A DNA stretch of 64,000 nt from positions 1 through 64,000 of the forward strand of contig CADCEV010000010.1 in the NCBI GenBank assembly GCA_902800525.1. The letters are read 5' to 3'. Both the position numbers and the translations under genes were made by a program. Numbering within the stretch: the first letter of the stretch is position 1; each line of letters starts with the position of its first letter. The notes beneath the pieces were generated by a model. It saw only the letters and a program-made list of their open reading frames with translations, did no database searches and was not told the DNA's origin. Positions 25,384 to 34,528 of the stretch are shown here, piece after piece. The stretch is from an uncultured Bacteroidales bacterium (lineage in GTDB: Bacteria; Bacteroidota; Bacteroidia; Bacteroidales; Paludibacteraceae).

Positions 25384-25415
25384 AAGAAAAAGCGCACAAA
25401 AATGCGCTTTTTCTT
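25384..25415 (+). terminator. terminator between the C11 and TamB-like genes
   Basis: A 13-bp stem, AAGAAAAAGCGCA / TGCGCTTTTTCTT, has a 6-base loop. It covers the upstream ATG at 25402, so that ATG cannot be the start of the next gene. The -33 box of the next promoter overlaps its right edge. Confidence 0.85.
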
Positions 25416-25444
25416 GCATATGTGCAAAATTTGTCGTATCTTTG
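25414..25444 (+). promoter_or_regulatory. promoter of the TamB-TamL/SusCD run
   Basis: TTG (25414-25416), 20 bases and TATCTTTG (25437-25444). The transcript would begin only a few bases before the TTG start at 25453, so the leader is very short. Confidence 0.72.
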
Positions 25445-25452
25445 CACCCGAT

Positions 25453-28400
25453 TTGAAGAAAAGCAATCTACTTTGGAAGATCCCACTGGTTCTTTTGGGG
25501 ACAGTAACGGGGTTCGTTTTACTGCTATTAGTGGCAGTTATTGTTGTTGTAGCTACTCCTTCATGCCGCGAGGCGGTGGTGGAAAAAGGAGTAGCTCTCG
25601 CCAATGAGAAAACGGATTTAGATATCGATCTGGGACATCTCTATCTCTCGCCTTTCCATCATTCTCCCATGGTCTTATACCGTGCTTACAAAGGCAAAAC
25701 GGATCTGCCCTTGGGCGTAGAAGTAGATAGCCTCTTTGTGGGACACCGCGGACAGGATACCTTAATCTACGTGCGCGCGTTGCACCTGAAGACCATCGTC
25801 CGGACTTCCGGACGAGAGGACACGGTGCCTTTCAATCCTTTAACCATGCCTATAGAGGTGGAGAAACTGCATCTTCGCCAAGTCACTTTTCATTCGGACA
25901 GCCTGATCGCTGCCGTGGGCTTGGATATTATCGTGGATAGTTTGGATGTTACCTCGCCGGAGTTGATCATCGCAAAAGGGCAATATCCTTTGCACGGGTT
26001 GCGGCTGGAAGGCGCAAATGTGGGCGTTGATTTGCGCAAGCAGGCGAAGAAAGAAGAGCTGAAACAGGAAGAGGCGCCTAAACAGACGCCTATGGCGTTC
26101 GATATACCCGATGGCGAACTGCGAAGAATCCATTTCCAACTCACCCCGTTAGGGATGCATATCAAGGCGAAATCGCTTTCTACCAATACGTTGGTTAATG
26201 TGGGCGGTAATGTGTATGACGCTCGACGCTTGGACGTGGGAGGATTCTCGTTGGAGTTGCCCAAACTCTATCTGCCTTTTGATACAATTGACGGAAGCGC
26301 CTATGTGGATATAGCCAACAGTCTTATCACCAGCAAGGGACTTCATGCACATTCGGAGGAACTGGGAGCGGACGCTAAGTTCAAATCCACCCTCTTTAAC
26401 CTCAAAACGATGCGCGTAGAGACGGAAGGAGAGGCGGATTTTAAGGGCTCGAAAGCTTCGCTTCGTGCATTTTACGACATCGACGATCAGCTCTATGGGG
26501 CGAATGTGGAAATGGAACGCGTTGATTTGTCGCCGTTCCTCAAACGAACGATGAACCTGATACTTGCCGGTTCATTGCAAGCGGAAGGCAAGGGAATCAA
26601 CCCTTCTTCGCCGGCAATGCGGAGCAAAGTGCATCTGTTTCTTAAAGACGCTATCTACGAGCAGATTAACGTCTCCGGCTTGGACTTGGACGCCGCTTTG
26701 GCGAATAAGACCGTAGAGGGTACGCTGCATCTGCCGGTAACGATGCGCAACGAGAGTTTGAAACTGAAAGCGAAGACGGAGCACCGTTTCCGCGTATCGG
26801 AGTTCATGAAGCCGGATCAGATGGCGGTCGATTACCATGCTACGATGCGCCAGGTACAAGCGCAGTTGGCGAAAGAGACCTTGAAAGCGGATGTGCTGAC
26901 GCTTGATTTTGCAACCGATACCGCCACTTCATTGGCTATGGAGACTGCAGGTCTGTCAGTGATCGTGGAGAGCCCGATGCATGTGTTGAAATTAGTGGAC
27001 AAAGCGCAAGCGTTGAAGCATATCCCCACTTCGTTTACCGACCTCAATAACCTCGATACCTTGCGACGCCTGATCCCGAATCTGGCAGCGCGTATTGCGT
27101 TGACCAAAGGAAGTCCGATTCAAGGTATTATTGAGCGAAAGGGCTTGGATATAGACCGTGTAACCTTGGCGTTGAACTCCGACGAGGAGCAGACCACGTT
27201 AGAGCTGGACGCCGCTATGCCCGAGACCGATTCTACCAAATTGCGTCTCCCGGCAACCAAGGCGGCGATGAAAATGACGATGCGCGAAGGTGTCGCTACC
27301 GCTACTCTTACGGCGGATACCAAACTGACCGACGGGGCCGCTTCCATGCACGACCTGCGCACAGATGCTAACCTCTGGCTGGATGTGGAGCGCAAAGGCG
27401 AGGACTTGCATGGCAAAGGATGCTTCACTTTGGATGATCTCACATTCAAGAATATGGACTTTGGTAGCCGTGCGGCAGAGATAGAGATCGCTCCCTCAAA
27501 GCGCTATGCCCACGCCTGGCAGACGGATGTGCGTCTGGATGATATACCTCTTACGATCCTGGACAGCATTGTACGCGTGCCCGGTTTGGCGTTGCAGGGA
27601 GCTATACGAGCTAAAGCGAATATAGACGGTCTGCCTTCCAAAAAGGATATATCCGCCGAGGTCGTTCCGTTAGGCGTGACCGCGCTCTACACGAAGTACG
27701 GCGCGCAACTGAGTCTTGGCGAAGAGCCGATTATCATGGAGCATAACAAGGTGGATCTGAACGGTCTGCCTATCTATGGAGCGGACAGCACGTTCCTGCA
27801 ACTAAACGGCGGTCTGGACTTGAATACGATGCGGTTGGATGTGGTCTTAAAAGCAGACAGTTTCGCGCCGGTTAAGTTGGAAGAAGGCGGACAGATGCCT
27901 GTTTACGGAGACTTGGCGGTGGATATAGACGGAACGGTCTCCGGTCCGCTGGATAGCATTCTGGCGGATGTGGATGTGACGATCTTGCCCAATACCGATA
28001 TCACATATCCTATTGACAAGAAGAACTTGGCACAAGTGAAGCCTTACGGAACGGTCAATGTGCAGTACGGCACTGCCGGGAAGGAACTGAACTTAGGCGG
28101 TCGGATCAATGTGGATAGCGGATTCATTCGTTATTCGCCCAAACTATACCCGATCATGCCGTTCCGTGTGGATTCCGGAAGTCATGTGGATTTCAACGGA
28201 CCGATCAAGAAAACCCGTTTGAATGTAGCCGCCTCGCAGAAAGTGTCCTCCAACGTGCAATCAGCCGGTGAGGAGATGCGGTCGGTGGATTTCATTACCG
28301 GTGTGCGTATCAAAGGAGAATTGGACACGATCGGTTTGGGAGCACTCAATTTCTTCCTCGAGGCGCCGAAGGACGAGACCATCTCGCGTGAGTTGGCTAC

Positions 28401-30243
28401 TATTGATGAAGACGCCCGCGAGGGTCTGGCTACGACCTTGTTGGCTACCGGTGTCTATATGGGCGAGAGTAACGTGGCTGCTAAGAGTGACGGATATGCG
28501 CTCACTACGCTCCTTAACAGTCGTCTCAATGCCGCCGTGACTAACTCCAAAGGCGTCAAGTGGATGGATGTGAACATGACCACCAACAAGAATGAGCATT
28601 CCGAGGCTTCCAAAGATTATAACCTCTCCCTGAGCAAGTCTTTCTTTGATGACAGGCTACGGGTGACCGTGGGCGCCAAATTGGCAAACAACCCCGATAT
28701 GAGCACATCCGGCAATCTGTTCTATAATGTATCGGCGGATTATAAGTTGACCAAAAAGGGCAACCTCTACCTGCGGCTTTTCTCACAGAGCGATTATTCG
28801 AATATCTTTGAAGGAAGCCTTATTAAGTCCGGTTTGGGTCTTCGTTCGATACATGAATGGACCCCGGAGCCGCAGATCATCCATCGCGCGGACTCGTTGC
28901 CGGACGATACGATCTCACGTACATATGGTCTCACGGCGGATGCGAACGTCGTTTATCGCTCCAATAACAGTATTGGCCCGGAGGCGGCGTTGACATCCTC
29001 GGTGCGTAACTTGTTGGGCAAAGGTGAGACGCTCACTATCAAAGGAGAAGGTGCGTATTACTGGGCGTTGCGAGGACGCAAACCCGGCGATCCCAAGAAG
29101 ACGGACAGCTATAAATTAGGTGTCCGCTCGTCCTTGCTCTTCCCTTATCTGCATTGGGCAGGTACAGAAAACCCCTCCGGTGATACGCGGTACATGTTGG
29201 GCTACCAATATGAGAATATAGCCGGCGGATACGGCGCGCACAGGGTCTTTGGATCGCTGACGTATTTCATTCGTACTTCGAAATATGTAACGCACGCATT
29301 CACGCCGTTCTCGCTCTCCGTGGCGTTCATCAATGCCGATACCACCTCTTTTGCGGATTCGAAAAAGAACGCGGCACAGCTCCTGCGAATCTTGGCGAGC
29401 GATGAGTTAATACCGGCTATCAGTTATGATTTTATCTATGACAACTATCGCTCCAAACGCCCTGTGAACACCATGTTTGAGATCGGCGTCAAGGAATCGG
29501 GAAATATCATCAATGGTATATATTGCGCTTTCGGACATAAGTGGAACGAGAAAGACAAACCCTTAGGAAGCCGTTCGTTCTCGCAGTTTGTCAAAGTGCA
29601 TGCCGAGTTGCATAACAAGTTCAATTTTACCGACGATATCTGTATTGCAACGCGTCTCTTTGCGGGTGCAAACATCCCAATTGGTAACTCCGTCTCGGCG
29701 CCCCTGTCGGAAGCGTATTATGCCGGAGGTCCCAACAGTCTGCGTTCGGCGCCGCCGTATTCCTATGGACCGGGTAATTACTACAGCGATAAGTACAGCC
29801 AGAGTTTCTTTCATTCCGGAGATATCAAATTGGAGGCGAACTTCGAGTTCCGTTTCCCGATCTTCTGGAAGATATACGGCGCTACTTTCCTCGACGCCGG
29901 CAATACATGGAACTGGTTCAATACAGCGCAGGTCTTGAAGGATGCCGGACAGGGTGATCTGTTAGAGGCAATAGGAGTTCCGACTGATTATAACGACTGT
30001 CTTTTCAATAATCCCGACCTGCCGAAACAGATTGCTTTGGGAACCGGAGCCGGTCTCCGTCTGGATTTTGAAGGACTTGTTATCCGTCTGGATTTGGGTG
30101 TTGCAATTCACTCGCCTTACCAGACTTATCGATATGACAAAGACGGTAAACCCGATAAGACACAGCCGATCAACACCTATTTCAATATCCCGTCAGGATG
30201 GGATGCGTTGCGGCTGAATTTCGGTATCGGATATCCGTTCTAA
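25453..30243 (+). CDS. TamB translocation module fused to a TamL/Omp85-type barrel
   Basis: This is one unbroken frame of about 1596 residues from TTG 25453; no ATG precedes the membrane helix after the promoter. An inner-membrane anchor (about residues 9-30) is followed by a long AsmA/TamB beta-helical body. The TamB C-terminal (DUF490) domain covers about 760-1136, with SKSFFDDRLRVTVGAKL and YLRLFSQSDY. TamB would normally stop there. Here the chain goes on, from about residue 1157, into a barrel like that of Bacteroidota TamL (BamA/TamA superfamily). It has the L6-type loop GGPNSLRSAPPYSYGPG, then IKLEANFEFRFPIFWK and FLDAGNTWNW, and it ends FGIGYPF. No POTRA domain is visible. The gene probably serves outer-membrane protein or lipid transport. 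SusC follows after 11 bases. Confidence 0.85.
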   Translation: MKKSNLLWKIPLVLLGTVTGFVLLLLVAVIVVVATPSCREAVVEKGVALANEKTDLDIDLGHLYLSPFHHSPMVLYRAYKGKTDLPLGVEVDSLFVGHRGQDTLIYVRALHLKTIVRTSGREDTVPFNPLTMPIEVEKLHLRQVTFHSDSLIAAVGLDIIVDSLDVTSPELIIAKGQYPLHGLRLEGANVGVDLRKQAKKEELKQEEAPKQTPMAFDIPDGELRRIHFQLTPLGMHIKAKSLSTNTLVNVGGNVYDARRLDVGGFSLELPKLYLPFDTIDGSAYVDIANSLITSKGLHAHSEELGADAKFKSTLFNLKTMRVETEGEADFKGSKASLRAFYDIDDQLYGANVEMERVDLSPFLKRTMNLILAGSLQAEGKGINPSSPAMRSKVHLFLKDAIYEQINVSGLDLDAALANKTVEGTLHLPVTMRNESLKLKAKTEHRFRVSEFMKPDQMAVDYHATMRQVQAQLAKETLKADVLTLDFATDTATSLAMETAGLSVIVESPMHVLKLVDKAQALKHIPTSFTDLNNLDTLRRLIPNLAARIALTKGSPIQGIIERKGLDIDRVTLALNSDEEQTTLELDAAMPETDSTKLRLPATKAAMKMTMREGVATATLTADTKLTDGAASMHDLRTDANLWLDVERKGEDLHGKGCFTLDDLTFKNMDFGSRAAEIEIAPSKRYAHAWQTDVRLDDIPLTILDSIVRVPGLALQGAIRAKANIDGLPSKKDISAEVVPLGVTALYTKYGAQLSLGEEPIIMEHNKVDLNGLPIYGADSTFLQLNGGLDLNTMRLDVVLKADSFAPVKLEEGGQMPVYGDLAVDIDGTVSGPLDSILADVDVTILPNTDITYPIDKKNLAQVKPYGTVNVQYGTAGKELNLGGRINVDSGFIRYSPKLYPIMPFRVDSGSHVDFNGPIKKTRLNVAASQKVSSNVQSAGEEMRSVDFITGVRIKGELDTIGLGALNFFLEAPKDETISRELATIDEDAREGLATTLLATGVYMGESNVAAKSDGYALTTLLNSRLNAAVTNSKGVKWMDVNMTTNKNEHSEASKDYNLSLSKSFFDDRLRVTVGAKLANNPDMSTSGNLFYNVSADYKLTKKGNLYLRLFSQSDYSNIFEGSLIKSGLGLRSIHEWTPEPQIIHRADSLPDDTISRTYGLTADANVVYRSNNSIGPEAALTSSVRNLLGKGETLTIKGEGAYYWALRGRKPGDPKKTDSYKLGVRSSLLFPYLHWAGTENPSGDTRYMLGYQYENIAGGYGAHRVFGSLTYFIRTSKYVTHAFTPFSLSVAFINADTTSFADSKKNAAQLLRILASDELIPAISYDFIYDNYRSKRPVNTMFEIGVKESGNIINGIYCAFGHKWNEKDKPLGSRSFSQFVKVHAELHNKFNFTDDICIATRLFAGANIPIGNSVSAPLSEAYYAGGPNSLRSAPPYSYGPGNYYSDKYSQSFFHSGDIKLEANFEFRFPIFWKIYGATFLDAGNTWNWFNTAQVLKDAGQGDLLEAIGVPTDYNDCLFNNPDLPKQIALGTGAGLRLDFEGLVIRLDLGVAIHSPYQTYRYDKDGKPDKTQPINTYFNIPSGWDALRLNFGIGYPF

Positions 30244-30254
30244 CCATTTGAACC

Positions 30255-32906
30255 ATGAGACACACAATATCTATCATCCTTTTATGCTTGCCGCTGTTTC
30301 TTTGTGCCCAGGAGCTGCGGTCTAAGACCGACACCCTGCGTGTGGAGACCTCGCGTCTGGGACACTTGACTAACTCGCTCGATATCTTGAACGGTCATGC
30401 CGCCGGTGTTACGGTGGGACCGAACACTAACCCCGAAGCGATGCTCTCGTCTGTCCGTGTACGCGGTAACCACTCTCTGACAGGCGGCAACGAACCGCTG
30501 GTAATGATTGACGGTATGTCATCTGATCTGAGAACCTTGGCTACTATCTTCCCCGGAGATATTGAGTCTTTTACGATCCACAAAGACGCCGCGCAAACGG
30601 CGCAGTACGGAGCACGTGGAGCAGCAGGTGTCATTGAGGTCAAGACCCGCAGAGGCTTGATCGGTAAGTTTCATGTCCATTATGCCGGCGATGTGGGTGT
30701 CGCTCATGCGGATAAGTTTCTGCCGATGATGACAGCCGATGAGTACCGCGCTATTACGGCTTCCCACGGCATGCATATTGTCGATGGAGGAACGGCTACC
30801 GACTGGCAACGGGCTATCACACGACCGGGCTTTGTGCAGAATCACCACTTGGCGTTAGGAGGCGGTTCGGAGAATGCCAGGTATCGTGCTTCGGTCAGTT
30901 ATAGCCAGAATAACAGTATCATCCGCGAGATGGGCACGCAGAACCTTACCGCCAAGATAGATGTCACCCAGTACGCTTTCTCCAAACGCCTGACATTCGA
31001 TATAGGTATCTTCGGCGCGCTGGGAAAGAACCAATATCTCAACGATGTGCAGAAGACATTTTATTCAGCAGCGGCGTTTAATCCCACCTTGACTTCAGCG
31101 CGTAATCCCGATGGCTCGTACAGCTCTAATCCCGACGCCAGCCAGATCAGTAACCCCCTTTCCCTTTTGGATATAAAGCGCCATAACGAAGCACTGCATT
31201 TCAATACCCATATGCGCGTCACCGGCGATATCGGTTACGGCTTGACTGCCTCTGTGTATGGTAGTTACAGTTACGACGCCGATGATGACAGCCATTTCTA
31301 TCCCACTTATACATCAGGAAAGGTCTATCGCGGAGCCGGTAAGGCTACTATTTGGATCTTTAACGCAAATCTCCATTACGCGCACGATTGGACGAAAATC
31401 CACCATTTTGAGGCGGATCTATTAGGAGAAATGAACGGCAAGGTAGCCTCCGGCTTTCATACTACGATTAGCCGCTTGGCATCCAATGCTTATGGCTATG
31501 ATAACTTGTCTATCGGTGCGTTGCGGCTGTGGGAAGGAACCGGCAGTATGCAGGAGAGGCAGCGAATGCTCTCATTCATGGGACGCGTCAGTTATACGGC
31601 GTTGGATCGCTATACGATCACGCTGGCTGCTCGCGGAGATGGCAGTTCTGTCGCCGCAAAAGGGCATCAGTGGGGATTCTTCCCTTCCGCTAACGTCATT
31701 TGGAATATAAAGAAAGAGGAGTGGATGCAAGAAGCGTATTGGCTCACGGGACTCAAACTGCGTGCAGGGTGGGGTCTGTCCGGTAACTTGGGCGGTATAG
31801 CGGCATACCAGTCCCTGCATCTGATGATGCCCACCGGTATCACAGAAACCGATGGTGTGCCCGATGTGATCCTCGGTCTCGGCAGAAACGCCAACCCCGA
31901 CCTGACCTGGGAAAAGACCCAAACCATCAATGCCGGAATGGAGTGGAGTTTCTGGTATAACCGATTGGTACTCACTGCGGATTATTACTTTTCGCATATC
32001 TACGATATGCTCTATCGCTATACGGTTCCTGTGCCGCCCTTTATCTATGACACGATGCTGGCTAACTTGGGTAAGATGCAGAACCAAGGTGTGGAGGTCG
32101 GTTTAGGTATAGCAGCGGTCAAAACGAAGGACTGGGATGTGAATATAGGCCTGAACCTCACCTGGCAACAAAACAAGCTCCTTTCGCTCAACGGCTACTA
32201 TAAAGGCGAGTACCTCACAGCACCGACCTATACACCTATTGCGGCGGTTTCCGGAGCCGGTCTTCACGGTGGCAACACGGATGTGGTCTATCAGATACCC
32301 GGTTATTCCCTCGGTGTCTTCTATCTGCCCCATTGCACCGGTCTCACCACCGACGAGCACGGAGACCGCTCTTACGAGATTGCAGACCTCAACGGAGACG
32401 GTTATATTGACCTTTCGGACGGCAGCGGAGACAGACGGGTATGCGGACAGGCGACACCGAAAGTGCTACTCGGCAGTAATATATCCTTCCGTTACCGTTC
32501 CTTCGACTTCTCTGTACAACTCAACGGTGCGTTCGGGCACAAGATTTATAATGGAACCGCCCTGAGTTATATGAATATGGGCAGTTTGCCTTCGTATAAC
32601 ATCCTCAAATCCGCTACGGACAAGCAAATCAATGACCTCACCGTTTCTGATTACTGGCTTGAGAACGGCGATTATGTCAATATTGATTATCTCACACTGG
32701 GTTGGACTTATACGCCGTCCAAACCTTCTGCTCTGACCAACCTTCGCGTCTCTGCGTCGGTCAACAACCTGGCTACAATCACAGGCTACTCCGGCCTTAC
32801 GCCTATCATCAACAGCACCGTCATTAACCCGACTCTTGGTGTGGATGACAAGCGTTCTTATCCCGTCAGCCGTACTTATAGTGTTTCCCTTCAAATCCAG
32901 TTCTGA
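30255..32906 (+). CDS. SusC/RagA-family TonB-linked outer-membrane protein
   Basis: This 883-residue protein has a signal peptide ending near LFLCAQ. It has a plug domain with SVRVRGNHSLTGGNEPLVMIDG and SFTIHKDAAQTAQYGARGAAGVIEVKT, and a large barrel. The N-terminal carboxypeptidase-like domain found in most SusC proteins is absent, so it is on the short side. It imports glycans or peptides with its SusD partner, whose ATG shares one base with its stop codon. There is no glycoside hydrolase, sulfatase or SusE/F next to the pair, so the substrate cannot be guessed from context. It follows the TamB-TamL gene closely, probably in one transcript. Confidence 0.92.
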   Translation: MRHTISIILLCLPLFLCAQELRSKTDTLRVETSRLGHLTNSLDILNGHAAGVTVGPNTNPEAMLSSVRVRGNHSLTGGNEPLVMIDGMSSDLRTLATIFPGDIESFTIHKDAAQTAQYGARGAAGVIEVKTRRGLIGKFHVHYAGDVGVAHADKFLPMMTADEYRAITASHGMHIVDGGTATDWQRAITRPGFVQNHHLALGGGSENARYRASVSYSQNNSIIREMGTQNLTAKIDVTQYAFSKRLTFDIGIFGALGKNQYLNDVQKTFYSAAAFNPTLTSARNPDGSYSSNPDASQISNPLSLLDIKRHNEALHFNTHMRVTGDIGYGLTASVYGSYSYDADDDSHFYPTYTSGKVYRGAGKATIWIFNANLHYAHDWTKIHHFEADLLGEMNGKVASGFHTTISRLASNAYGYDNLSIGALRLWEGTGSMQERQRMLSFMGRVSYTALDRYTITLAARGDGSSVAAKGHQWGFFPSANVIWNIKKEEWMQEAYWLTGLKLRAGWGLSGNLGGIAAYQSLHLMMPTGITETDGVPDVILGLGRNANPDLTWEKTQTINAGMEWSFWYNRLVLTADYYFSHIYDMLYRYTVPVPPFIYDTMLANLGKMQNQGVEVGLGIAAVKTKDWDVNIGLNLTWQQNKLLSLNGYYKGEYLTAPTYTPIAAVSGAGLHGGNTDVVYQIPGYSLGVFYLPHCTGLTTDEHGDRSYEIADLNGDGYIDLSDGSGDRRVCGQATPKVLLGSNISFRYRSFDFSVQLNGAFGHKIYNGTALSYMNMGSLPSYNILKSATDKQINDLTVSDYWLENGDYVNIDYLTLGWTYTPSKPSALTNLRVSASVNNLATITGYSGLTPIINSTVINPTLGVDDKRSYPVSRTYSVSLQIQF

Positions 32907-34528
32907 TGAAAACAGCCAAACTGATAATATTGCTTTTGACCCTTGGCGTCACTTCCTGTTCGTTTCTCAACGAAGAGCCGCGTTCCGGTCAGCCGGAGAA
33001 CGTGGTGATCACTACCGATGTTATTCTCCACCGTCAGGCGGTTCTCTCCTTGTATGACCATATTGGTAGCGGAGACGATGGAGCCGGGTTGCAAGGTACT
33101 TATCGTGGTATCTATGACCTCCAGACTTTTGCTTCGAACGAGGCAATCATCCCTATACGCGGAGGCGATTGGTGGGATGGCGGGCTATGGATGGACCTCT
33201 ATGAACATAACTGGGCGGTGGATAATGAGTGCTGTGAAAACGCCTGGCTCTATCTCTACCAACTGGTCGGGCTATGCAATCATTCCTTGCATATGCTGGA
33301 AGAGTACGCTTCGCTCCTTTCCGAAGAACAGCGACGCACGTATGATGGCGAAGTGCGCGCCGTGAGAGCGCTCGCATATGTCTATCTCATTGACCTCTTC
33401 GGACGTGTACCGCTCGTCACACACGATGACATGACCGTACATGAGATCCATCAGTCCGAACGAAGCCGGGTGTTCCAATTCATTTGGTCTGAACTACAGG
33501 CGGTTACGGCCCTTTTGCCCGATGAACGCTCTAACGCCAGAGGACTTTATTACGGACGGATTACACGGCCTGTCGCCCATTTCCTGCTTATGAAAATGGC
33601 GCTGAATGCCGAGGTCTGGACCGATGATGATTGGACCGATGGCGTGCGTCCAGATGGTAAAACAATCCAACTGCTATGTGCGGAAGATAACAAAAAACGC
33701 AATGCCTGGGAAACGGTTATTTTCTATGCGGATCTTATCCTCCAATCCAATGCCCACTATGCCTTATGCAACAGTCAGACCAAATGTTTCGAGGTCTTCA
33801 ACGAGGATGCTACGGAGAATATTTTCACCATCCCCATGAATCCCAATGTGTATAGAAACCGCTTCAAGAACCTCTTCCGCAGTCTTCATTACCAGCATGC
33901 CGGAGCGCTCGGTTACAGTGGTAAGAACGGCTCCTGCGCTACCCTCGAGACGCTGCATGCTTTTGGCTATGGCACCTCCAAACAGGACTGCCGATTTGGG
34001 ATCTCTTTCTTTGCCGGAAGAGTGATGGTCAATAACGAACCTCTTATCCTTTCTACCGGTGATACGCTTGTTTATCAGGCGCTTGCCGTGGAAAAAGACC
34101 TCACCTGTTCGCCCTATGTCACTACAGCAGGAGCGCGTATGCGCAAGTATGTCTTCAATCCGGGCTCTATCTCGGATGGTCAACTAGAGAATAGCGATAT
34201 CGTCCTTTACCGCCTTGCCGATGTCTATCTGATGCAAGCAGAAGCCTTGGTCCGCAACGGACAGAATGGGCAAGACCCCTTTGACCTCGTACGCTTTCGT
34301 GAGCCGACCGCATTGGGTATTGCCGTTCAACCACGTGAAGCAACGCTGGAAAATATCTACTTGGAACGCTGGATAGAACTTGTCTGGGAGGGCTGGCATC
34401 GCCAGGATCAGATCCGCTTTGACAAATACTCCAACCGACCCGATGAACGTTACCTCACCGTCTTTCCGATTCCCGTCAAAGCCATCCAAACCAACCCCAA
34501 CCTCACTCAAAACAAAGGCTATGAATAA
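32906..34528 (+). CDS. SusD/RagB-family nutrient-binding lipoprotein
   Basis: This 540-residue surface lipoprotein has a lipobox at LGVTSCSFL. The SusD fold is mainly helical. It has the N-terminal region ending near YRGIYDLQTFASNEA, the AEVRAVRALAYVYLIDLFGRVPLV-like TPR segment and the C-terminal RLADVYLMQAEALVR, followed by ERWIELVWEGWHRQDQIRF. These last motifs are diagnostic. SusD caps the SusC barrel and captures the ligand. It is translated with susC through a TGATG overlap. Two hairpins and a convergent rpsA follow. Confidence 0.93.
   Translation: MKTAKLIILLLTLGVTSCSFLNEEPRSGQPENVVITTDVILHRQAVLSLYDHIGSGDDGAGLQGTYRGIYDLQTFASNEAIIPIRGGDWWDGGLWMDLYEHNWAVDNECCENAWLYLYQLVGLCNHSLHMLEEYASLLSEEQRRTYDGEVRAVRALAYVYLIDLFGRVPLVTHDDMTVHEIHQSERSRVFQFIWSELQAVTALLPDERSNARGLYYGRITRPVAHFLLMKMALNAEVWTDDDWTDGVRPDGKTIQLLCAEDNKKRNAWETVIFYADLILQSNAHYALCNSQTKCFEVFNEDATENIFTIPMNPNVYRNRFKNLFRSLHYQHAGALGYSGKNGSCATLETLHAFGYGTSKQDCRFGISFFAGRVMVNNEPLILSTGDTLVYQALAVEKDLTCSPYVTTAGARMRKYVFNPGSISDGQLENSDIVLYRLADVYLMQAEALVRNGQNGQDPFDLVRFREPTALGIAVQPREATLENIYLERWIELVWEGWHRQDQIRFDKYSNRPDERYLTVFPIPVKAIQTNPNLTQNKGYE

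Follow-up and report, generated by a model that had tools for sequence, protein, structure and literature searches.

A fused tamB2–tamL2 gene in Paludibacteraceae and its candidate role as a single-chain TAM

A single intact reading frame in the genome of an uncultured member of the Paludibacteraceae encodes a TamB-type protein joined to a TamL-type outer-membrane barrel, and the fusion was confirmed as real. The window analysed is a stretch of 64,000 nucleotides from a genome of 2.39 Mb in 33 contigs. A single-chain TAM is the best explanation of this gene (probability about 0.68): it has the same parts as other TAMs in a new covalent architecture, from which two defining features of TamL, the lipoprotein signal and the POTRA domains, are gone. 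To our knowledge, it is very unusual for one chain to combine a helix for the inner membrane with a barrel for the outer membrane.

Architecture of the fused protein

The coordinates of the features are given in Table 1, with residues numbered from the ATG at 25402; subtracting 17 gives the numbering of the original prediction. The frame is uninterrupted to the stop codon at 30241–30243 from either this ATG or the TTG at 25453. The TTG was favoured because the ATG lies within a terminator-like hairpin and because homologues have an annotatable methionine start near 25453. On these sequence grounds 25453, from which a single frame of about 1596 residues had originally been read, is more likely to be the true start and is preferred here. 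A hairpin scan listed a one-strand stem at 25390..25415, with 6 hits in total, close to the 4.5 (sd 2.5) of shuffled sequences. The −7 promoter consensus of Bacteroidota is TAnnTTTG. A promoter dedicated to the fused gene may lie just 5′ of the TTG start (25390–25444, the hairpin followed by a −7-type element), and the position of the putative element so near to the TTG hints at a very short leader.

Table 1. Positions in the window of the fused gene, its 5′ signals and the parts of the encoded protein
Feature	Position	Strand	Residues	Basis or remark
Terminator-like hairpin, ATG 25402 inside	25390..25415	.		Sequence reading; 3′ of upstream C11-peptidase gene
Putative −7 element, TATCTTTG	25437..25444	+		Read from sequence; fits TAnnTTTG by eye
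Fused tamB2–tamL2 gene	25453..30243	+	1596 aa from TTG; 1613 aa from ATG 25402	
N-terminal hydrophobic helix	25477..25554	+	26–51	AlphaFold2 helix 9–34 of protein begun at 25453
TamB-type beta-taco body	25564..28374	+	about 55–991	hhalign to TamB2; AlphaFold2 strands
TamB C-terminal domain	28375..28860	+	992–1153	AlphaFold2 model residues 579–740; alignment to TamB2 C-termini
Linker, TamB last strand to barrel strand 1	28861..28920	+	20 residues	Alignment of fused proteins
16-stranded TamL-type Omp85 barrel, no POTRA or lipobox	28921..30240	+	1174–1613	Pfam, NCBIfam, AlphaFold2, Foldseek, tree
Loop L6 motif, GGPNSLRSAPPYSYGPG	29725..29775	+	conserved Arg1448	Alignments
C-terminal FGIGYPF	30220..30240	+		Invariant in 16 fused proteins (alignment A1)

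AlphaFold2 was applied to two parts of the chain and gave six strands of the TamB C-terminal domain followed by the 16-stranded C-terminal barrel that had been anticipated. The N-terminal half (mean pLDDT 82) consisted of a long helix at 26–51, a second helix directly after it and then a run of beta-strands, and the first helix is a putative AsmA/TamB-type inner-membrane anchor. The model of residues 414–1613 (mean pLDDT 77, pTM 0.45, with the lowest confidence in the C-terminal domain) continued with further taco-type strands, the helices of the C-terminal domain (992–1048), its six beta-strands (1056–1153, model residues 643–740, with low to middling pLDDT), the linker and 16 main strands at 1174–1610 (model residues 761–1197), counting strands of at least eight residues and disregarding two shorter ones within the last loop. 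In ten-residue blocks, pLDDT was 37–62 in the later helices and first four strands of the C-terminal domain and 50–53 in the linker. The last strand of the domain (1140–1153) ends at W1153, which is the residue 1136 near which the TamB part had been proposed to end, and the sequence motifs quoted in that proposal are present in the protein. Of the alignments used for folding, A2 drew on 33 of 37 fused loci prepared, together with 12 TamL2 barrels, and A3 on 28; the 37 did not include L038, L048, L051 and L059, which are truncated or interrupted, or L065, where the genes are separate. Among known structures searched with Foldseek, the modelled barrel matched the TamA barrel 8us4 with a TM-score by target of 0.69 and BamA barrels with 0.63.

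Profile comparisons recovered the barrel over cut-off in the window protein, while the other expected match, to TamB PF04357, was silent there. The Omp85 family PF01103 matched residues 1394–1612 with 52.7 bits (cut-off 24) and was found in 17 of 17 fused proteins at E≤0.01; a match to OprB fell below threshold. PF04357 gave no match on the window protein at E up to 1, with matches in two of 16 and three of 17 fused proteins (overlapping sets, best E 5.2e-20) and in all 13 TamB2 relatives. The part before the linker aligned with TamB2 in hhalign from the membrane helix to the last strand, with probability 100, E 4.4e-85 and 21 % identity. No significant match was found in a profile search against the sequences of solved structures, in which TamA was the best hit (E 0.13). 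Fused proteins fall into two size classes, of about 1600 and about 1525 aa, the latter lacking profile columns about 410–472.

A further reading is that the N-terminal segment is a signal peptide that is cleaved off, which would leave a barrel in the outer membrane with a long taco free in the periplasm and nothing to anchor the protein in the inner membrane. Signal peptides and membrane anchors are alike by sequence, but in the model the long N-terminal helix runs straight into the second helix, and TamB2 homology extends through the N-terminus. DUF748 was matched by seven of 13 and AsmA by five of 13 TamB2 proteins at E≤0.01, and DUF748 at the N-terminus of two of 17 fused members, both below the curated cut-off. 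The absence of an inner-membrane anchor is considered unlikely.

The POTRA domains had been proposed to be dispensed with, and this is supported. Pfam POTRA models matched none of 17 fused proteins at E≤0.01 and none of 16 at E≤0.1, whereas all 11 N-termini of separate TamL2 proteins matched PF07244 at E≤1 (best 1.8e-12). The fused family gave no match to TamL2 N-termini in hhalign (probability 0.2), and NCBIfam NF052279 (lipo_TamL) scored 315.5 bits, below its 400-bit cut-off, over profile positions 332–747 of 747, which is the barrel only. In these profile and alignment comparisons, the N-terminal part of TamL2, which holds the lipoprotein signal, is missing from the fused chain. The arginine of loop L6, described as retained, was found in every motif of 57 fused, 10 standalone TamL, seven other TamB-adjacent and 43 TamL2 barrels. 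The motif around it differs by group, with VRGW typical of standalone TamL, IRAF of TamL2 and LRAS, LRAA, MRSA or LRSA of the fused proteins. By this alignment the LRSA of the window protein is not peculiar to it but one of the forms usual in the fused group.

The two halves are connected by a linker of 3–22 residues (median 13) in 58 fused proteins, a few of them identical. A lost stop codon at the join had been raised as a concern. Direct reading of 28800–28980 found no stop, and the same open join is present in independent assemblies of other species. The chain might be translated as one and then cut at the linker by a periplasmic protease, giving TamB2 and a POTRA-less TamL2. The linkers do vary in both length and sequence, but no common cleavage site is apparent where those of the fused proteins are aligned, and in two of the 58 proteins linkers of 3 (L009) and 5 (L037) residues by alignment leave little space for one. 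Moreover, the cut halves would be without POTRA docking and so without any known docking surface. Cleavage at the linker is judged about as improbable as the loss of the anchor.

Origin, distribution and selection

Phylogenetic trees were reconstructed separately for the two halves. Of 128 barrels extracted, 117 remained once 11 identical ones were removed, and 63 of these entered the barrel tree; the tree of the TamB C-terminal region had 50 rows. In the barrel tree all 26 rows from fused proteins group as a single clade (100/99) within the TamL2 barrels whose genes adjoin tamB2; next to it lies L065, a Prevotellaceae assembly in which the two frames are separate but overlap. The TamB tree likewise places its 24 fused rows in a single clade (100/100) within TamB2, and this clade groups with L065, L067, L068 and L072 (93/98, not starred). 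Both halves are thus independently one clade inside TamB2/TamL2, and a single fusion event is the simplest reading of the trees. Separate TamB and TamL genes are present elsewhere in the window's genome, indicating that the fused chain is an extra TAM. Membership of the main TAM was ruled out by the trees together with these separate genes, and by its sequence relationships the fused gene is placed as a derivative of the second pair, TamB2/TamL2. The GTDB family of the window was also sampled for TamL genes adjacent to TamB (L120, L122, L126 and L131), but an origin from these was rejected, as they branch elsewhere in the trees. In two other families, the fused genes (G405, G588; G521 = L115, L113; L114) branch from within the group of the window's genus, for which horizontal transfer is the simplest reading. 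Among the separate pairs, a four-base gene overlap was found in seven of the 28 with a start assigned; starts were set by a crude script that left 11 of 39 unassigned and was clearly wrong for L103.

A scan of the genus found matches to the fused profile at E≤1e-100 in 99 of 151 genomes. The barrel was included in the match in 97 of these, and in 93 of the 97 the frame stayed open for 1366 codons or more. Frames were shorter in G024, G252, G1123 and G319, only N-terminal pieces were present in G1103 and G1119, and one stop lay inside the match in 10 of 100 barrel-bearing match rows. Three genomes (G301, G311 and G321) had two barrel-bearing matches each, on different contigs. In a family sample of 300, the genomes with a match, contig-edge pieces included, numbered 79 in the window's genus and five in three other genera (G048, G081; G049; G080, G161), all with scores far above those of separate genes. 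The fusion was found in five of 393 genomes of an order sample and one of 395 of a phylum sample, the latter being the window's own genome; genomes without a match in the genus, family, order and phylum scans were itemised in part only. Outside the genus, the fusion is rare.

A pattern scan of one genome per species matched at least 595 stretches; at least 492 of these passed confirmation, and the 80 best were retained as loci. Of these best 80, 41 encode the barrel in the same frame as the C-terminal part of TamB and 39 in a separate frame, which is the comparison of fused with separate genes called for by the original prediction. Among the 41, L051 is broken further upstream, L038, L048 and L059 start at a contig edge and L027 runs off the 3′ edge. 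Named relatives among the matches listed are mostly gut and rumen assemblies labelled 'Paludibacteraceae' or 'Bacteroidales'.

Comparison of the window gene with a 95 % identical relative gave a dN/dS of 0.077 (dN 0.022, dS 0.283), and the values across the join (0.018/0.322) indicate a constraint similar to that on the whole gene. A decaying or functionless relic is highly unlikely, given that purifying selection acts on the join as well as on each half, and given a C-terminus and L6 arginine that are invariant in alignment A1; the gene is nevertheless dispensable, as 52 of 151 genus genomes had no match at E≤1e-100, including G011 and G014, which are 98 % complete. Mis-assembly was ruled out by orthologues with the same join, and an assembly or base-call artefact joining two genes has a negligible probability, since, although the named fused loci are metagenome assemblies, many genomes of the genus carry the fused open frame, the same join occurs in many species at about 30–95 % identity from different studies and hosts, and the low dN/dS speaks against it.

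A companion protein and the neighbouring genes

The fused gene is accompanied in most of the genus by a gene for a companion protein of about 250 residues, with a signal-like N-terminus and, in most members, a C-terminal FGVQK(N/S)F. Matches to models of small outer-membrane barrels were weak (OMP_b-brl_2 in seven of 13 members at E≤1, best 7e-4), and the companion is a putative outer-membrane protein. Among the 151 genus genomes, 92 have both genes, seven the fusion only, four the companion only and 48 neither (Fisher P=6e-27, a value that ignores ancestry and linkage). The companion gene lies directly upstream of the fused gene on the same strand in 70 genomes, with match spacing of −20 to 76 nt. 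In a one-query test it was found in 10 of 14 fused genomes, weakly in G588 (E 2.5e-4), with no hit in G048, G080, G405 and G521, and in none of 10 non-fusion genomes. In the fetched flanks of the best 80 of at least 492 loci, it was present at 23 of 41 fused-lineage loci and none of 39 separate-pair loci; at the other 18 fused-lineage loci it was absent from the fetched flanks, some of which were cut by contig ends. The companion is retained even when unlinked, as in the window's genome, where an intact ORF lies not upstream of the fused gene but at G000:C3:180691-181467 (L143:2692-3468).

Other neighbours were less constant. At 30255–34528 of the window, a TonB-dependent receptor gene (Pfam) starts 11 nt past the fused stop and is followed by a gene that looks SusD-like. 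A conserved operon with this receptor was not supported, as it is absent from the ORF clusters common to at least four of 36 fused loci. Of 37 sequences compared (the window and 36 loci), 14 have a gene of the Na+/H+ exchanger family (L025:6745-8229) close to the fused gene.

Relation to known systems and proposed mechanism

The closest known system is the TamB2–TamL2 operon named in Flavobacterium johnsoniae, in which the start of the second gene precedes the stop of the first (PMC12045153). As described there, tamB2 and tamL2 can both be deleted and lie in a genome with an essential TamB/TamL, the pair occurs in 20 of 30 species surveyed, and the authors' account of it offers no insight into its function. 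The fused gene resembles this pair in F. johnsoniae and other Bacteroidota in having the same two proteins in the same order beside a separate TamB/TamL. However, TamL2 of F. johnsoniae is described as a separate lipoprotein with three POTRA domains, whereas the fused protein is one chain with neither lipobox nor POTRA (PMC12045153). In the cryo-EM structure reported for E. coli TamAB, the first strand of TamA is hydrogen-bonded to the last strand of TamB, the POTRA domains of TamA are further docking surfaces and deletion of POTRA2 was lethal in the test strain (PMC12800296). The E. coli complex shares the taco and the Omp85 barrel, and its paired strands are those joined here, but it is described as non-covalent, POTRA-docked and seen in hybrid and non-hybrid states, while a covalent join may make the hybrid permanent (PMC12800296). 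In a model from Borrelia burgdorferi, six C-terminal strands of TamB complete the BamA barrel at strand 1 (PMC13382580); unlike the fused chain, this involves two separate proteins, and its BamA carries five POTRA domains. PlpD-type Omp85 proteins likewise have a barrel fused to an N-terminal periplasmic domain, but this is patatin-like and one POTRA is kept, in contrast to the TamB-type domain and absent POTRA of the fused chain (PMC11116518). As worded in PMC11116518, Omp85 proteins have at least one POTRA domain, and none was found in the fused chain; PMC4104836 mentions a 'noNterm' group of Omp85 proteins that lack any N-terminal extension. No TamB–Omp85 fusion was reported among the matches listed from the open-access literature, as judged from titles and the starts of abstracts, with subscription papers and preprints outside its scope, and the words 'fused' and 'fusion' are absent from the main texts of PMC12045153, PMC4494059 and PMC13382580.

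In the proposed mechanism, the fused gene would have arisen by in-frame fusion of an ancestral tamB2–tamL2 operon, the genes of which still overlap or abut in many relatives, and TamL2 would have lost its POTRA domains and its lipoprotein signal, so that the last beta-strand of TamB2 runs through a short linker into strand 1 of the barrel. The N-terminal helix would be the anchor in the inner membrane, the beta-taco would span the periplasm and the barrel would lie in the outer membrane, so that the chain could be a working covalent conduit from inner to outer membrane. Because the linker has only 3–22 residues, and because the same strands are paired in E. coli TamAB, the last TamB strand and barrel strand 1 are likely to pair as an intramolecular hairpin, which would be a built-in TamA–TamB hybrid barrel. 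Since docking is covalent, there would be no need for the POTRA domains through which TamB docks in two-piece TAMs; the join would replace POTRA docking and fix, or strongly favour, the hybrid state.

The taco may carry phospholipid, feed an outer-membrane protein to the barrel, or both, making the chain a lipid conduit, an OMP insertase or a combination of the two, and the small companion is the best candidate for its client or for an accessory partner. A permanently occupied strand 1 would hinder classic substrate capture there, which counts against a simple insertase. That the join fixes the hybrid barrel, with the C-terminal strands of TamB a permanent part of the outer-membrane wall and the conduit dedicated to or regulated by the co-inherited companion, is a tentative proposal that may well prove incorrect.

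The fused gene bears on how TAMs work, namely whether pairing of TamA strand 1 with the last strand of TamB is the working state and what purpose the POTRA domains serve. It is a natural experiment in which evolution joined the paired strands and discarded the POTRA domains. Permanent occupation of strand 1, if true, would favour either lipid carriage or a gate located on the other side. A TAM encoded by one gene would be a simpler object for structural work and for assays of lipid transfer and OMP assembly, and the companion is a first candidate client for TamB2/TamL2.
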